From NCBI GenBank assembly GCA_026014725.1, contig JAOZHV010000001.1:1-64000 (forward strand): DNA of 64,000 nucleotides, written 5' to 3'. Source of the DNA: Candidatus Bathyarchaeota archaeon (lineage in GTDB: Archaea; Thermoproteota; Bathyarchaeia; Bathyarchaeales; Bathycorpusculaceae). Positions 39,698-46,635 of the stretch are shown here, piece by piece. The notes under the pieces were generated by a model. That model did not search any database. It saw only the letters and a list, made by a program, of their open reading frames with translations, and was not told where the DNA came from. The number at the start of each line of letters is the position of its first letter. Position 1 is the first letter of the stretch. A program made the translations under genes and the position numbers.

Positions 39698-40333
39698 TTA
39701 AACATTCACCCATGAACCTGCCGGCATTGACTCTGGGATAGTGAATTCTAACGTGAGCGGCGCAGTCTTCTCTAACCTGATTTCAATAGTTACCTGTGAC
39801 CGCACTAGTGCTGCGTTATCTAAGCTTAAAGACACAACGAGAAAACCTTTTTCGCTTGAATCTAAGGCTTGATCGCCGTTGCTATTTTGAATGTAGAGCA
39901 TAGCGTTGTCTTCTGTCACGCCTGATACCATGTTGTCGAATGTTTCACCGGGTGTTGATGCGCTGCTTCCTTCGTAAACATTTGGCCATGCGTTTGAGCC
40001 TATTTTGAGAGTTACTACAGTTGTTTCCTCGTTCATTGAAACATATTTTGTTCCGAAGGTTTTCAACGGAATGAGTATGGCTGTTACGTTTGCGCCGTCT
40101 GCGGAAGTCTTTACGAATGTAGTTCCATCAACTGATAATGGTGTGCTAGCTTGCTGTAAACCTTGCTGGATTACAGTCTTCCCCTGTTCCGTTGCAAAAA
40201 GTCCTTGGTTAACGACCATGAAGCTGAAAACAGCTGCAATTATAACAAATGCAATGAGAATTATCGCGGCTTCTAAACCAACTATAGCTCGCTTTTGTTT
40301 TACAAAGTTGCATAGGTTTTTTTTCCAGTTCAT
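39698..40333 (-). CDS. arlB: Archaellin (archaellum filament subunit) 1
   Basis: 211 residues. The N-terminus has a basic leader (KQKRAIVG) and the hydrophobic class III signal LEAAIILIAFVIIAAVFSF, cleaved by an ArlK/PibD-type peptidase. The hydrophobic helix packs the filament core; the rest is a surface beta domain. AGGAAAG precedes ATG 40333. It is the last gene of the archaellum cluster, about 170 bases after archaellin 2, with which it shares the N-terminal 50 residues almost exactly. Confidence 0.9.
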   Translation of the reverse strand: MNWKKNLCNFVKQKRAIVGLEAAIILIAFVIIAAVFSFMVVNQGLFATEQGKTVIQQGLQQASTPLSVDGTTFVKTSADGANVTAILIPLKTFGTKYVSMNEETTVVTLKIGSNAWPNVYEGSSASTPGETFDNMVSGVTEDNAMLYIQNSNGDQALDSSEKGFLVVSLSLDNAALVRSQVTIEIRLEKTAPLTLEFTIPESMPAGSWVNV

Positions 40334-40501
40334 TTTACTTTCCTCTTAATGTTACCTCACTAAAAGGCTGTTTTTATATTAATCATTTATGAACTGGCAA
40401 TACTGATTTCTGATATTTCAAGATGCTTTGTTTGTTAAAAATGAGAAAGATGCTTGCGTTAATCGCCGCTCCCCCAACGACGAATTATCGCTAGCTTTTT
40501 C

Positions 40502-41374
40502 CTAATACAGCGGGACATAACTGTTTGCTGGCATAGATGCAGGTACAGTAAACACTATTGAAATCGTTGCGCTGTTCTCTATTCTCAACTCAAGAGTTAT
40601 TGGTGCTCTAGCAGTTGCTTCATCGCCTGAGCCAAGCGCCACTAAGAGGTAACCCTCCTCACCTGAGTTTAATGCTTCATCTCCGTTGCTGTTCGAAACC
40701 GCAAAGACCACTCCTGTTGTCAAACCCTTTGCGTGTCCAGCACTGTAAGTTTCATTTACGTAGATGTTGCATGGTTGTCCACTTGTTGTTTGCAGTGCTA
40801 ATTGGAAGCCCGCGAATTCATCGAATTGTTTGCCTGTCGGATCATAAACTATGCTTGTCGCGTTGTAGCTTGTTCCGTCGCTTTCACCTACATGCAGTGT
40901 ACCTAGATATGCGTTTGCCCATGCTTTCTCGCCTACCGTTAATATTATGCTTGTTTGGTTTCTTCCCATGTTGATGAAGTTTGATCCGAATGCTTTTATG
41001 GGAATTATCGCGTAGTTAACGGCTGTTCCAGCGGGATTGGTTCGGACAAGAATTGTTCCATCAACAATTAACGGTGTGCTAGCTTGCTGTAGACCCTGCT
41101 GCATTACTGTCTTGCCTCGGTCGGTGGCGTACAAGCCTTGGTTAACGACCATGAAGCTGAAGGCAGCTGCAATTATGACAAAGGCTATCAGTATTATGGC
41201 TGTTTCTAAGCCTACAATGCCTCGTTTATGTTGGACAAAATTGATGATTTGTGCTCGTACAGAATTGCGGATTTTTTGGTTGCATGAAGGACAACTTACC
41301 ATCTGAAGTTTTGATCTAGTGTGCCACTCGTAATTGCATTTTGTGCATTTTATGTTTGGTTTTTCTTTGTTCAA
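40502..41374 (-). CDS. arlB: Archaellin 2 with an N-terminal zinc ribbon before the class III signal
   Basis: 290 residues from TTG 41374. Residues 1-45 contain CTKC (10-13) and CPSC (28-31), a zinc-ribbon pair. The basic HKRGIVG site and hydrophobic LETAIILIAFVIIAAAFSF (about 52-72) follow. Processing by the signal peptidase would release the ribbon into the cytoplasm. The mature part resembles archaellin 1 but has an enlarged surface domain. A GGTGG site lies four bases before TTG. The archaellin call is firm; the role of the ribbon is unknown. Confidence 0.88.
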   Translation of the reverse strand: MNKEKPNIKCTKCNYEWHTRSKLQMVSCPSCNQKIRNSVRAQIINFVQHKRGIVGLETAIILIAFVIIAAAFSFMVVNQGLYATDRGKTVMQQGLQQASTPLIVDGTILVRTNPAGTAVNYAIIPIKAFGSNFINMGRNQTSIILTVGEKAWANAYLGTLHVGESDGTSYNATSIVYDPTGKQFDEFAGFQLALQTTSGQPCNIYVNETYSAGHAKGLTTGVVFAVSNSNGDEALNSGEEGYLLVALGSGDEATARAPITLELRIENSATISIVFTVPASMPANSYVPLY

Positions 41375-41386
41375 TTTCCACCACTT

Positions 41387-41414
41387 CTACTTATACTACT
41401 ACTTACACTACTTA
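41387..41414 (-). repeat. Three CTACTTA repeats in the archaellin 2 leader
   Basis: CTACTTA occurs at 41387-41393, 41399-41405 and 41408-41414 (TAAGTAG on the coding strand), with a diverged fourth copy at 41382-41386. They lie 13-40 bases upstream of the archaellin 2 start, between a TATA-like AAATATTAA and the SD. They could be a regulator or RNA-protein site. Confidence 0.45.
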
Positions 41415-41579
41415 TTATTAGTATGTATTAAGAGTTAATATTTAATAAACGTTGCGGTTTTTGAAGCATACAACAGCAAAGTTTACCATAAAAGCATGGT
41501 AATTTTATGCCGCAACCTTATTTTTAGCATATTTTTTGAGAAAAATCTAATTAGGCTGTATTACTCGAAAAATCTTAAC

Positions 41580-43211
41580 TTATATTATTGCCGTTGGTAA
41601 CCCTAAACTTGGCATCGAATTTAAAGCGCCTTGTATTAGCGTATGCGATGCTATTGATGCTATGCCGCTTATAGTAAGCAAGATTCCAAGATTCAAGAAG
41701 AAAGTCCCCCAGTATCCGCCTGAAACGGCTTTAACGGTTAAAGCGTTCATTATGGCCATTATGAAGATTACGACTGTGTTGCTGATTTGTATTAATGTTA
41801 TCGGCAGGACGTTGAAGCCAAAATATGACAGTCCTGTTAAGTATTGAGACATAAAAATTGCCAAAACTTCCAAAACTGTAAGAAGAACAACAATTAAAGG
41901 TTGAGTAACCAAAACTACCATCTGAAAACTGTTGGCAACCACATCACGCATTTTTCTGAGTTCAAGAAATTTTACCACCCTGTTTCCTAATGCGTTACCT
42001 AATACTAAGGGGTCAGCTCCCCTTCCTAAAGAATCAAGCAGTATTTTATTGCTCATGTGAACATGGTATGATGCGGCCTCTTCAGAAAGTGTTTCTAACG
42101 CTTGCCTGTGGTTAATTTCCAATTTTACTCTTGATAAAGCTGAGTTGACAAGGTTGCGTAGGGGACCAAGTTCCATATGGAGAATAAAGGAAAGGGACGT
42201 TTTCAAATCAGACGTGGAAGCCATGTTCTCGCCCAGAGCCTTCAGGAAACTGGGGTAGTTCTTGTCAATTTTGGCAACTTCTCTCTCTAACATGTAGCCG
42301 AAAATGCCTGGAACAATAGCTCCCAAACCAAAAATAATAAACGCATACGGCGCGCCGAGTCGGATGTAGGAAAAAACGGCTAGTACAGCAGATGCAGGAA
42401 TAATCGTCAGAATGCTTAGCCTCATATACTTGTATATTTTTGGCGGGTACTTGCCAATGTAGACGATTTGTTCGGTGGGCGCTGCAGATTTAAAAAGCCC
42501 ATACATCATTATTGTTGCCAAAACCGAGATTATGTAACCTAAAATTATTACGCCCGAATCAATCATGAAAACTGACATGATAACAAGTGTCATGATCAAG
42601 AAGACAGTTACACTCTGGAAAGTTGTAGATATACCGCCTAAAGTCTCTAATGTTTTAACCGTTCGTGAATAATATCCCGAATACTCTTCCATCAGCATCG
42701 AAGATTCGATTTCTAAATATCCTTTAGGTTCAACGCTGGAGAATGTGTTTGTGCAACGGACAAGAATATCTTTTAATGGTGACTTGACAGTTTTGGCGAT
42801 TTGGGCTGTGGCGTTGGTGATTCCGTAACCGAAATGTTTTGCCAAGTTTTGAATCTTCTTAAAGACAATGGAGTAAAATCCGTATTCTCGGTTTTCAGCA
42901 ATTATTGTAATTAAATCTGAGGGGGTTGTTTCTCCCAAAGATAAACTGTACATATGAAAGATGGCTGTTGTGAGCGCTTGGTCAATCCTGCTTCTGACGC
43001 TTCGTTTTTCCATGTATTTTAACATGCCTAAAACAGCTAATCCCAGTACAAGACTAATCATGGCTTCAATGAGTTCTTTGTTAACCACAAAGTAGAGGAA
43101 AAAAAGCATCGAAGGGGTTAGCACCAGAACTAATTTTTTGTGTTGCCTCGTCATCAGTAGGTTTTTTTGTGTTTCATTACTTAGTCGAATAAATTTTTGA
43201 TTCAAACCCAC
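41580..43211 (-). CDS. arlJ: Archaellum membrane platform protein ArlJ
   Basis: 543 residues, polytopic, with the two T2SF-type cytoplasmic domains of ArlJ/FlaJ. The second contains LGENMASTSDLKTSLSF and LLDSLGRGADPLVLGN. About nine transmembrane helices are arranged in clusters. It anchors the motor ATPase ArlI and overlaps its 3' end by ten bases. Length is typical. Confidence 0.9.
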   Translation of the reverse strand: MGLNQKFIRLSNETQKNLLMTRQHKKLVLVLTPSMLFFLYFVVNKELIEAMISLVLGLAVLGMLKYMEKRSVRSRIDQALTTAIFHMYSLSLGETTPSDLITIIAENREYGFYSIVFKKIQNLAKHFGYGITNATAQIAKTVKSPLKDILVRCTNTFSSVEPKGYLEIESSMLMEEYSGYYSRTVKTLETLGGISTTFQSVTVFLIMTLVIMSVFMIDSGVIILGYIISVLATIMMYGLFKSAAPTEQIVYIGKYPPKIYKYMRLSILTIIPASAVLAVFSYIRLGAPYAFIIFGLGAIVPGIFGYMLEREVAKIDKNYPSFLKALGENMASTSDLKTSLSFILHMELGPLRNLVNSALSRVKLEINHRQALETLSEEAASYHVHMSNKILLDSLGRGADPLVLGNALGNRVVKFLELRKMRDVVANSFQMVVLVTQPLIVVLLTVLEVLAIFMSQYLTGLSYFGFNVLPITLIQISNTVVIFIMAIMNALTVKAVSGGYWGTFFLNLGILLTISGIASIASHTLIQGALNSMPSLGLPTAII

Positions 43212-44884
43212 GGGACTTTCATCTCTTTAACTCGACGGTGGACCTCCCATATGCCTAAAGTTTTGGCAGTTGTCATTGCTTTGGAGACTTCGGTATGGGT
43301 TGGGAAATTTTCTGCAAGATAATTGAGTATTTCAGCTCTGACTTTCATTTCCTCGTAAATGTCTCGGATTCTGTCTTCACCCCATCCCCTGAACGCAAGA
43401 ACTCGGTTTTCTAGATGGAAGCTTGAACCCATGAAGCGAAATTGATCTAAATCTTCATCGTACATAAAAGTAGGCAGATAGTTTAGTCTGCCTTCGTCAG
43501 GTTCATAACCGATAACTTCGTTAATTGAGGTGCAACGCCGGATGAATTTGCTTCCTCTTTCTATTCTTGCTTGGAAAATGACTAGGTTTAAGCCGTCGAT
43601 GTGGCTTTTGGGTACATCAATTGGGTATGAGGTCAGTCTCTGGAACAGTTGCCCAAGGTTACCTGCGTGCATCGTTGATAGAACAGGGTGACCAGTTTCA
43701 ACGGCTTGGAAGGCTATCTTGCCCTCTTCGCCTCGCAATTCGCCTACGATGATGTAATCTGGTCTTTGTCTTAGGGCTGCTTTTAGGAGGTCAAACATTG
43801 TTATTTGAACTCCTGTGTGGAGTCTGGTGATTTCTCTAATCCAGTTTTTGTGATAAACGTTGATTTCTGGTGTTTCTTCTATGCTGATAATTTTTGAGTC
43901 GGCACCGATGAATGTTGTCAGGGCGTTGAGCGTTGTTGTTTTGCCTGAGGCTGTTTCTCCGCAGACCAAGGCAGTTATTCCTACTTCAAAGAGCATCCAT
44001 AAATAAGCAGCCAGTTCAGGTGTGAGTGTATGCCATTTGATTAGTTGTGCAACTGAAATTGGTTCTTTGGGGAACTTTCTTATGGTGAAGTTGCTGCCTC
44101 TCAGGCTGATGTCTTCGCCAAAGACTATGTTAAGTCTTGAGCCGTCGTTCAAGTGAATGTCAATTATGGGGTGGGTATAGCTTAGGACTTTCCCGTGTCT
44201 TTCAGCTATATTTCTCAGTAGCTCGTTGATGGCTTGTTGTGATACGTCCACGCTTGTTTGAAGGTTACCAAAAGTTCTATGATAAACAAAAACACTGCCT
44301 TCGCCAGGAATGCTAATGTCTTCAAGGCCAGGATCTGCTAAAAATCCATCTAAAAAGCCATGCCCTATTTTTTCTCTCAAAAAATGATAAAGCAAAATTT
44401 CTTCATCGGTTCCTTTTGGCAATTTAACCATTTTTTTCTTGATTGTTTGTCTAAAAAGAGAGGCTAAAATTATGGCTTTTTGGTCACCATAATCTTTGCC
44501 TTCTACGAGTCTTGCGACTGCTGTTTCTATTTCAGCCAATATTTTTCGGTCTGGATTTGGCGGCTCAATGATGTTGTATCTGTTGGCTGATTCGCCCATT
44601 GTGATATGAGCGTAAATGCCTAACCCTAATGGATATAATACATTAACTTTTTCTTCGAAGGGTACTTCTTCTATGTTCGTCGTATATTTTGGCTGTTCAG
44701 GCAATCCTTTAACGTAGGACGCCAAGTAAGGATGCGTTTCCATAGCGCTTTGCAGAGTTTTACAAACGACTGTGTTGAACAAACCCAAATCTTGTTCTTG
44801 TTCATTAAATGTTTCAATACGCGGAGTTCTGAATTTTAGCCTGATGAATTGCCTTAGCTTAGTTAAACTTGCGTAATCGGGCAT
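43202..44884 (-). CDS. arlI: Archaellum motor ATPase ArlI
   Basis: 560-residue type II/IV secretion ATPase. Walker A is GETASGKTTTLNAL, Walker B YIIVGELRGEEG, and the His box includes TMHAGNLGQLFQRL. An N-terminal domain (1-220) precedes the core. ArlI drives both assembly and rotation. Start ATG 44884 follows arlH by about 13 bases. Confidence 0.95.
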   Translation of the reverse strand: MPDYASLTKLRQFIRLKFRTPRIETFNEQEQDLGLFNTVVCKTLQSAMETHPYLASYVKGLPEQPKYTTNIEEVPFEEKVNVLYPLGLGIYAHITMGESANRYNIIEPPNPDRKILAEIETAVARLVEGKDYGDQKAIILASLFRQTIKKKMVKLPKGTDEEILLYHFLREKIGHGFLDGFLADPGLEDISIPGEGSVFVYHRTFGNLQTSVDVSQQAINELLRNIAERHGKVLSYTHPIIDIHLNDGSRLNIVFGEDISLRGSNFTIRKFPKEPISVAQLIKWHTLTPELAAYLWMLFEVGITALVCGETASGKTTTLNALTTFIGADSKIISIEETPEINVYHKNWIREITRLHTGVQITMFDLLKAALRQRPDYIIVGELRGEEGKIAFQAVETGHPVLSTMHAGNLGQLFQRLTSYPIDVPKSHIDGLNLVIFQARIERGSKFIRRCTSINEVIGYEPDEGRLNYLPTFMYDEDLDQFRFMGSSFHLENRVLAFRGWGEDRIRDIYEEMKVRAEILNYLAENFPTHTEVSKAMTTAKTLGIWEVHRRVKEMKVPWV

Positions 44885-44897
44885 TTTTTATCGTCTC

Positions 44898-45608
44898 CTA
44901 TAATCTCACTCCGCTAAGTGGCATCACCCGTAAGCCTATTTGGGGATTAATTGCAAGGGTTATAGAGCTCTTTCTTTCGCCAGTTACTCCCCATAGCTTT
45001 ACTGTTTTGAGAAGTTTAACGTCTATACCTGAGATGCAGGCGTTTTCTAGTACAAAGTAAGCGTCAGAGTTTGCTCTGAGTTTCATCACTGATTCTTGAG
45101 AAAGAAAATCTGGGTGAATGGTAATTATTACGGTTTTTCCATCAGAAACTAGATTCTTTACCCTTGTAATGAACGTTAAAAATTCATAGAGCGGCGTATC
45201 CACTGTTAAAACACTAAGGCTGTCTATAATTACAACATCATATTTTTGTTTCTGTGTCTCAAGAAAGTTTGCCGTTACCATCAAAAAGAAGGAACTCATG
45301 GCTTGGCTCCATCTTCCGCCTTCAATATGCAGTGGATAGATTTTGAGATGCCCATAAAGAAAGTAACTGTAAGGGTCAAGCTTAATTGACTCCATCATTG
45401 CGAGATATTCTTTTGTCATGGCCTCGCTGGAGACGACGTAAACACGTAATCTGTTTTTGAGCATTGCGTAGACCATTTGCTGGACGAATACGGTTTTCCC
45501 TGAGCCGTGGCCGCCTTCAATCAATATCAAGCTGGGGGTGGGTATTCCGCCTCCAAGGTCTCTGTCCAATTCGGGTATACCTAAGCGGACTACGTTTGTG
45601 CCATTCAT
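44898..45608 (-). CDS. arlH: Archaellum ATP-binding regulator ArlH
   Basis: 236-residue RecA/KaiC-like protein. Walker A is GGHGSGKTVFVQQM and Walker B VVIIDSLSVL. It binds ATP and joins ArlI in the motor. Its start overlaps the arlF stop by four bases. Confidence 0.93.
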   Translation of the reverse strand: MNGTNVVRLGIPELDRDLGGGIPTPSLILIEGGHGSGKTVFVQQMVYAMLKNRLRVYVVSSEAMTKEYLAMMESIKLDPYSYFLYGHLKIYPLHIEGGRWSQAMSSFFLMVTANFLETQKQKYDVVIIDSLSVLTVDTPLYEFLTFITRVKNLVSDGKTVIITIHPDFLSQESVMKLRANSDAYFVLENACISGIDVKLLKTVKLWGVTGERKSSITLAINPQIGLRVMPLSGVRL

Positions 45609-46129
45609 GCAATCACACCTTCCGATGATGCTGTAGTCCCATAGTGGGAAGCAAATGTTACAGAAACTACGTCTTGGCTTGTGATTTCAGGTGCCCCGCT
45701 GGGGAGGTTAAGGCTGATGCTTACTTGTTCTCCCGGGTTTATGAAGTTATGAGTTGCTATGTTGAAAGTAGTGGTGGTTCCTGTTACCTTGATTTCAGTA
45801 ATCGTGTAGCTTTCAATGGTGTAAGAGTGCCAATCTGAGCTACTTCCGTAAGATAAGATTATGGTGTTCCAGTTGTATCCGTTGGAGTTCTGGAGGAAGA
45901 TTGTTTTTGAGCCTATGTTTTTGATGGTGATGTCGCTTGTTGTGGCGGTTACTGAATCAACGGTTAGTTGCATCTGCGTGCTGATTTTGTCTTTTTGGTT
46001 GCTTATGTATTCGTTTGCTACGTAGGAGACTTCTTGAACGCTTGTAAAGAACGCTGTGCAGACCGTGGAGAAAATAGCTATAAAGCCTATAAGCACAATA
46101 AACGATGCTAACCCAATGGAAAATCCCAT
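45605..46129 (-). CDS. arlF: Archaellum stator protein ArlF
   Basis: 174 residues: an N-terminal signal-anchor helix (SIGLASFIVLIGFIAIF, about 4-20) and an extracellular beta-sandwich domain. The opening pattern matches ArlF rather than ArlG (FIVLIGF versus the THIIIVIAS of the next gene upstream). It binds S-layer components and anchors the motor. It lies between arlG and arlH. Confidence 0.8.
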   Translation of the reverse strand: MGFSIGLASFIVLIGFIAIFSTVCTAFFTSVQEVSYVANEYISNQKDKISTQMQLTVDSVTATTSDITIKNIGSKTIFLQNSNGYNWNTIILSYGSSSDWHSYTIESYTITEIKVTGTTTTFNIATHNFINPGEQVSISLNLPSGAPEITSQDVVSVTFASHYGTTASSEGVIA

Positions 46130-46137
46130 ATAATCAC

Positions 46138-46635
46138 CTACGTTGTTGGCGCTGAAAAGAGGTAGTCACTTCCGATTCCTTTTGAAGGAACAATTTTAGC
46201 TTCTAATACTGTCCCGTCGATACTGCCTGTTGGATAAGCATATATTGTTGCGGTTTCACGGGGCTCCCATACGCCGTTGCCATTTGCGTCAGTTAAACTG
46301 AACTTTCCGCTTCCGGCACCAGCAGTCACATCATAAGTATAAAGTTGTGCTGCGCCATAATTGCCCACGTAAATATCTAGATATGTAAAATCGTTAATGG
46401 GCAGTTTGCCCGTGTTTTTCGCGTATATCGCGTAAACAGGGGAGCCTGTTGTGTTTGCTGTGGCATAAACTATGTCTAATTGAGTATCGATTATGCTTTT
46501 CGCGTCTTTGACACCTTGTGTGAATTCGCTTTGGACAATATTACCAGTGTAGAGGGCGCAAGCAACAAAGGAGCTGGCTACGATTACTGACGCTATAACA
46601 ATGATTATATGCGTAATTGTAACCGAAAAACCCAT
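46138..46635 (-). CDS. arlG: Archaellum stator protein ArlG
   Basis: 165 residues: an N-terminal helix (THIIIVIASVIVASS) typical of ArlG, then a beta-sandwich extracellular domain. Residues 115-130 (LTDANGNGVWEPRETAT) resemble a calcium-type loop. It partners ArlF outside the membrane. The order G-F-H-I-J is the crenarchaeal type. Confidence 0.8.
   Translation of the reverse strand: MGFSVTITHIIIVIASVIVASSFVACALYTGNIVQSEFTQGVKDAKSIIDTQLDIVYATANTTGSPVYAIYAKNTGKLPINDFTYLDIYVGNYGAAQLYTYDVTAGAGSGKFSLTDANGNGVWEPRETATIYAYPTGSIDGTVLEAKIVPSKGIGSDYLFSAPTT

Follow-up and report, generated by a model that had tools for sequence, protein, structure and literature searches.

Why should an archaellin carry a predicted zinc ribbon in the part of its precursor that is expected to be cut away? 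Archaellin leaders typically comprise 6-12 residues (PMC4307647), whereas one archaellin of a Candidatus Bathyarchaeota archaeon has a leader of 52. The gene lies in a stretch of 64,000 nucleotides (the window), and a sequence-only reading of this stretch had offered three roles for the ribbon: holding the precursor in a competent state, marking it for export, or reporting assembly to gene expression. The gene, its upstream region and its ribbon were compared with orthologues and with relatives of the ribbon on other proteins.

The ribbon leader and its conservation

The ORF reads TTG-NKEKPNIKCTKCNYEWHTRSKLQMVSCPSCNQKIRNSVRAQIINFVQHKRG^IVGLETAIILIAF, where ^ marks the expected class III cut, and matched Arch_flagellin (PF01917) from residue 52 onward with an E value of 1.4e-17 and 65 bits (cut-off 29.5). 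The ribbon takes up about 37 of the leader residues, with CTKC (residues 10-13) and CPSC (residues 28-31) as knuckles. It is followed by a class III signal, HKRG^IVGLETAIILIAF, with basic residues, Gly/Ala at the cut, Gly at +3 and a hydrophobic stretch. Cleavage is predicted after Gly52 (KRG^IVGLE), and the genome contains one A24 prepilin-type peptidase gene. The ORF, the Pfam match and the orthologues confirm the earlier description of an archaellin with two Cys pairs ahead of its processing site, and the leader is indeed well outside the usual length range. The ribbon leader lies at the position first proposed (41220-41374), but the feature is slightly larger: the leader's final codon is 41219-41221, and an array is to be added on the 5' side (Table 1). 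The arlI, arlH, arlF/G-like and ArlJ-like genes are located directly upstream, as expected of an archaellum locus. In the ribbon-bearing family the archaellins stand behind arlJ with a TATA box of their own (39698-43211 in the window); in the ribbon-less relatives L044 and L045 the archaellins head the operon.

Table 1. Features of the ribbon-archaellin locus, in positions of the window.
Feature	Position	Strand	Description	Basis
Second archaellin	39698-40333	minus	17-residue ordinary leader (KQKRA^IVGLE), no ribbon, no array	
Ribbon-leader archaellin gene	40502-41374	minus	290 aa, TTG start, stop included	ORF, PF01917, orthologues
Predicted mature archaellin	40505-41218	minus	IVGLETAIILIAF...	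ORF, PF01917, orthologues
Basic linker and class III processing site	41219-41263	minus	HKRG, residues 38-52	sequence
C4 zinc ribbon (predicted), N-terminal	41264-41374	minus	residues 1-37	conservation, dN/dS, AlphaFold model
Ribbon Cys codons	41345-41347, 41336-41338, 41291-41293, 41282-41284	minus		
GT-rich short-repeat array	41378-41412	minus	AGTAGTGTAAGTAGTAGTATAAGTAGAAGTGGTGG, directly 5' of start codon; proposed operator/5' leader element	
TATA box of the archaellin's own promoter	41441-41449	minus	TTTATTAAA	consensus reading; conserved in orthologues
ArlJ-like membrane protein	41580-43211	minus		position and conserved neighbourhood; no Pfam match
ArlI-type ATPase (T2SSE)	43202-44884	minus		Pfam
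ArlH-type KaiC-like protein	44898-45608	minus		Pfam
Two archaellin-like genes, probably arlG and arlF	45605-46635	minus	PF01917	

The ribbon has the two CxxC knuckles, with invariant Cys, and the paired beta hairpins of a zinc ribbon, the hairpins being present in an AlphaFold model with pLDDT values of 88-90 at residues 11-30 and 78 overall; the four Cys would bind zinc. Foldseek gave weak matches only, to zinc-ribbon-type folds. Searches of Pfam, NCBIfam and PDB sequences returned no specific nucleic-acid-binding family, and assignment to a named ribbon family was abandoned: all matches to the named zinc-ribbon families of Pfam and NCBIfam were under their cut-offs in the tables for member 1. 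A full-length AlphaFold model of the archaellin showed the ribbon followed by a single continuous helix (low confidence), and its quality was too low for reading past the ribbon and this first helix.

Full-length orthologues were found in 13 of the 91 family genomes searched, and all 13 carried the ribbon. One genome of a sister family (G115) encoded both a ribbon-bearing archaellin (L035) and a ribbon-less paralogue (L043) in the same assembly. The search for ribbon-leader archaellins in related genomes, suggested earlier as a check, was thus positive, and these orthologues rule out a read-through frame unique to the strain. A translation start after the ribbon, near 41240, had been named as the other way in which the leader could be an artefact; it fails because the start column (TTG in the window and in L004, GTG in L009 and L011, ATG in most) precedes the ribbon and no start codon is conserved after it. 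The ribbon archaellins belong to a group of uncultured archaea.

Of the 37 ribbon positions, 18 are invariant with Met1 included, among them the 14 positions C10, C13, W17, T19, S21, L23, V26, C28, P29, S30, C31, Q33, K34 and N37. The linker between ribbon and signal differs in length among the orthologues; the processing site is KR[GA]^I[IV]GLE in most, with KKA, RQA or SRA in a few. For the ribbon, dN was 0.05-0.17 at a dS of 0.4-1.5 in the pairs compared, and dN/dS was about 0.05-0.15 in close pairs, for which dN was 0.05-0.09 and dS about 0.4-1.2; the ribbon is under purifying selection. In one further genome (G110; L069 1501-1656) the archaellin body is much more degraded than the ribbon, the array and the TATA box; the start position reads ACG, the linker is followed by a stop, and all that is left of the archaellin signal is a remnant. 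This locus was treated as a decayed copy because of the ACG in the start column and the degraded signal and archaellin remnant after the ribbon; the same features speak against a standalone ribbon gene, from which the released peptide would be made alone.

A GT-rich array upstream of the start codon

What the sequence-only reading had missed is the partner element of the ribbon, the GT-rich array. The final five bases of the array, GGTGG, are Shine-Dalgarno-like. In most orthologues TTTATTA is conserved about 25-31 nt 5' of the array. Among genes with a recognisable TATA-like motif, the median distance from this motif to the start of the array was 27 bases, which puts that start at or just past the expected transcription start. 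The density of RGTR in the window gave a score of 8 for the array and at most 4 elsewhere. Its 22-base core had one other, weak match (3 mismatches) in the 2.56 Mb genome, and exact matches to the GGTGGAG-type core were confined to the ribbon archaellin gene in G045, G046, G047, G049 and G069. The array preceded 14 of 14 ribbon-bearing archaellin genes, and the orthologues that lack the ribbon (L043, L044 and L045) lack the array as well. No RNA structure beyond that of shuffled sequences was found in the 5' leader and array of the window. A promoter and terminator scan, which uses a bacterial consensus, was uninformative for archaea.

Relatives of the ribbon on other proteins were retrieved with a profile, and in most cases they too were accompanied by a short-repeat array between a TATA box and their own start codon. 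Fusions to NuoE-like 2Fe-2S proteins (PF01257) occurred in several genomes, with the array GGTAGGTAGGTAG and the leader GTGGGTAGGTAGGTAGTAA or similar. A fusion to an N6/N4 DNA methylase (PF01555) is followed by the gene of a ThaI-type restriction endonuclease and has an antisense array 5' of its start codon (L189 1297-3033, G239). A ribbon ORF of 35 residues stands directly 5' of cas1 (PF01867), with a CTACTACCACTACTACTT array past the TATA box (L148, G050). No array precedes a ribbon fused to a pyrE-like phosphoribosyltransferase (L214, G488), and G028 and G230 likewise have ribbon genes without a clear array.

Arrays at further ribbons were predicted beforehand, and 398 genomes of the phylum were then searched. 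Most of the ribbons that were new from this search are ORFs of 40-50 residues; those examined abut TnpB genes (PF07282 or PF01385), with IS605-like hairpins upstream and GT arrays in most. Such ORFs within IS605-type elements of Thermoproteota (L198 5012-6266, L199, L203, L204 and L211; G493, G505, G393 and G326) have the GT array in the leader and, in most, the conserved GC hairpin AAAGCCTCGCCTTTTAAGGCGGGGATG upstream; in G493 the ORF is multi-copy. A virus- or plasmid-like region (L190 about 800-1311, G044) has several TATA-like motifs with a GTTAGTTAG array after each; one of these precedes a 123-residue ribbon protein, and together they are possibly a small regulon. Plasmids from a further three archaeal phyla, pSv326-1 (Micrarchaeota), pPO1 (Picrophilus) and pHF2 (Haloferax), carry ribbons of a similar kind, immediately preceded by GT or AC repeats. 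The GT arrays of pPO1 (L232 1138-1201) and pHF2 (L233 1168-1190) come from culturable genera. No ribbons were found in phage records.

Arrays were scored by the best 36-base stretch within 60 bases before the start, with a threshold of at least 5. With this score, which was chosen after the archaellin, NuoE and TnpB-type arrays had been seen, 24 of 30 Bathyarchaeia ribbons reached the threshold as against 13 of 272 control ORFs, the ribbon counts including IS copies, sister species and lineages that are not independent. For the phylum-wide set the figure was 15 of 27 (Mann-Whitney p 6e-10), made up of 14 of 19 close and 1 of 8 distant ribbons, a split that was made after the data had been seen. 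Not all plasmid arrays reach 5: the scores were 4 for pSv326-1, 6 for pPO1 and 4-6 for pHF2, depending on the start chosen.

The proposed role of the ribbon

Since ribbon and array together are what stays constant across unrelated host genes, the array is the most likely target of the ribbon. We put at about 60% the probability that the ribbon of the leader binds nucleic acid and regulates its own gene, having arrived with its own target site as a portable cassette. The ribbon would recognise the GT-rich array that its own gene carries between TATA box and start codon and so adjust expression, probably by switching the gene on or off; negative feedback would be the simplest form. In the archaellin, the ribbon would sit in the cytoplasmic part of the precursor and be removed by an A24-type (ArlK/PibD-like) peptidase, so that the level of ribbon, whether attached or freed, would reflect how much archaellin is made or processed. 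Export could in this way be coupled to expression through a removable ribbon, for which our confidence is lower than for the regulator itself. Several points weigh against the cassette: some ribbon genes have no clear array, not all plasmid arrays reach the threshold, the fold matches are weak and the sequence searches gave no specific nucleic-acid-binding family; a single DNA segment could also have spread repeats and ribbons together with no interaction between them, and a lone small ribbon is a weak candidate for specific DNA binding unless it is oligomeric or binds the array cooperatively.

Alternatively, the ribbon might serve export or assembly, keeping the precursor soluble or competent, or docking to ArlH, ArlI, ArlJ or the peptidase, before it is discarded. 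This would agree with its location exactly in the cleavable part of a class III precursor and in one archaellin only, with its conservation over many genera, and with the model of a ribbon leading into one continuous helix (low confidence). We nevertheless consider such a role unlikely. TnpB, Cas1, DNA methylase and NuoE-like proteins, which are not exported, bear this ribbon or have it next to them, and because it is found there without a class III signal it does not appear to be a part of export or of the archaellum; moreover, the ribbon-less orthologues manage without it, as do sister archaellins of the same cells. Two of the roles first offered, holding the precursor and marking it for export, are weakened by these non-exported carriers, whereas the third, reporting to gene expression, is favoured by the comparisons.

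If the ribbon is a regulator, its target could also be RNA: it might bind its own 5' leader at the Shine-Dalgarno-like GGUGG and control translation or hold the mRNA near the membrane. The array does lie within the predicted transcript up to the start codon, usually runs in the sense direction and shows no RNA structure in the window, but its orientation is opposite in at least five genes with a ribbon (G027, G050, G239, G275 and G306) and on the Micrarchaeota plasmid pSv326-1, and arrays flank the TATA box on both sides in G027 and pPO1. Arrays in either orientation, and on either side of the TATA box, favour double-stranded DNA as the target, and regulation at the RNA level seems about as unlikely as the export role.

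Genes for surface proteins, restriction-modification and transposons are frequently phase variable, and many arrays have GGTGG near the start codon. The arrays might then be slippage-prone repeats or additional ribosome-binding sites that have nothing to do with the ribbon. The runs are, however, short, broken up and poor in perfect units, the antisense arrays lack a Shine-Dalgarno sequence, and arrays go with the close ribbons rather than with the distant ribbons or other genes (14/19 against 1/8 and 13/272), which makes this explanation highly improbable. Least probable of all is passive fusion, the in-frame capture and chance retention of a ribbon ORF from an insertion sequence or plasmid: the nearest non-archaellin ribbons do include TnpB-abutting (IS605-type) and plasmid ORFs, but the low dN/dS, the 14 invariant positions beside a drifting linker and the retention of the ribbon in every family genome with a full-length orthologue speak against it.

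It is conceivable, though on balance doubtful, that an undescribed archaeal cassette, made up of a promoter, a GT-repeat operator and an N-terminal zinc ribbon, moves among mobile elements and host genes, and that in Bathyarchaeia it has become the disposable leader of an archaellin, the cut signal peptide acting as the regulator of the gene and counting filament subunits.

Relation to known systems

To our knowledge, the matching of archaellin synthesis to assembly in archaea is poorly understood. If the proposal is true, a regulator carried in a cleaved leader would answer this problem directly and give a signal peptide a new use, and the cassette would be a portable module of archaeal self-regulation for transposon, CRISPR, restriction-modification, redox and motility genes and for plasmids of several phyla. 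Through pHF2 it would be accessible in the laboratory genus Haloferax, the pPO1 and pHF2 ribbons being useful test cases. A literature search found no description of an archaellin with a zinc ribbon, nor of TnpB with a zinc ribbon upstream.

The window archaellin resembles ordinary archaellins with a class III signal (ArlK(FlaK)/PibD) in its Arch_flagellin domain, the basic residues and Gly/Ala before the cut, Gly at +3 and Glu at +5, as well as in the hydrophobic N-terminal helix and the surrounding archaellum operon. It differs in the leader, 52 residues with a predicted zinc ribbon instead of 6-12 (PMC4307647). TldR proteins are reported to be TnpB-related, RNA-guided regulators of flagellin (PMC13418256), where, as here, a transposon-related part is tied to the regulation of a motility filament gene. 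TldR is guided by RNA, whereas the element described here is a small ribbon ORF beside tnpB and not TnpB itself, and the link to archaellin regulation is one that we infer.

In M.SsoII, an N-terminal region modelled on the phage 434 repressor regulates transcription of its own restriction-modification system (PMC3978073). The ribbon-methylase fusion next to the ThaI-like gene has a comparable arrangement, with an N-terminal, putatively regulatory region acting on its own system, but with a zinc ribbon and a GT-repeat array, in archaea, instead of a 434-repressor-like region. As for a recognition site at the own promoter, the gene-specific, ribbon-associated array is a candidate binding site. 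Neither M.SsoII nor Brz is described, in the portions of the reports cited, as part of an exported protein's leader (PMC2253796, PMC3978073). According to its abstract, the Brz study of Halobacterium salinarum concerns a small CPxCG zinc-finger protein, encoded directly 5' of bop and required for high levels of bop mRNA (PMC2253796). The likeness lies in a small archaeal zinc-motif protein that is encoded just before the gene of a membrane protein and affects its mRNA. Brz is a separate protein, and that abstract mentions no repeat array, whereas the ribbon described here is fused, within a predicted cleavable leader, to the very protein that it would regulate.
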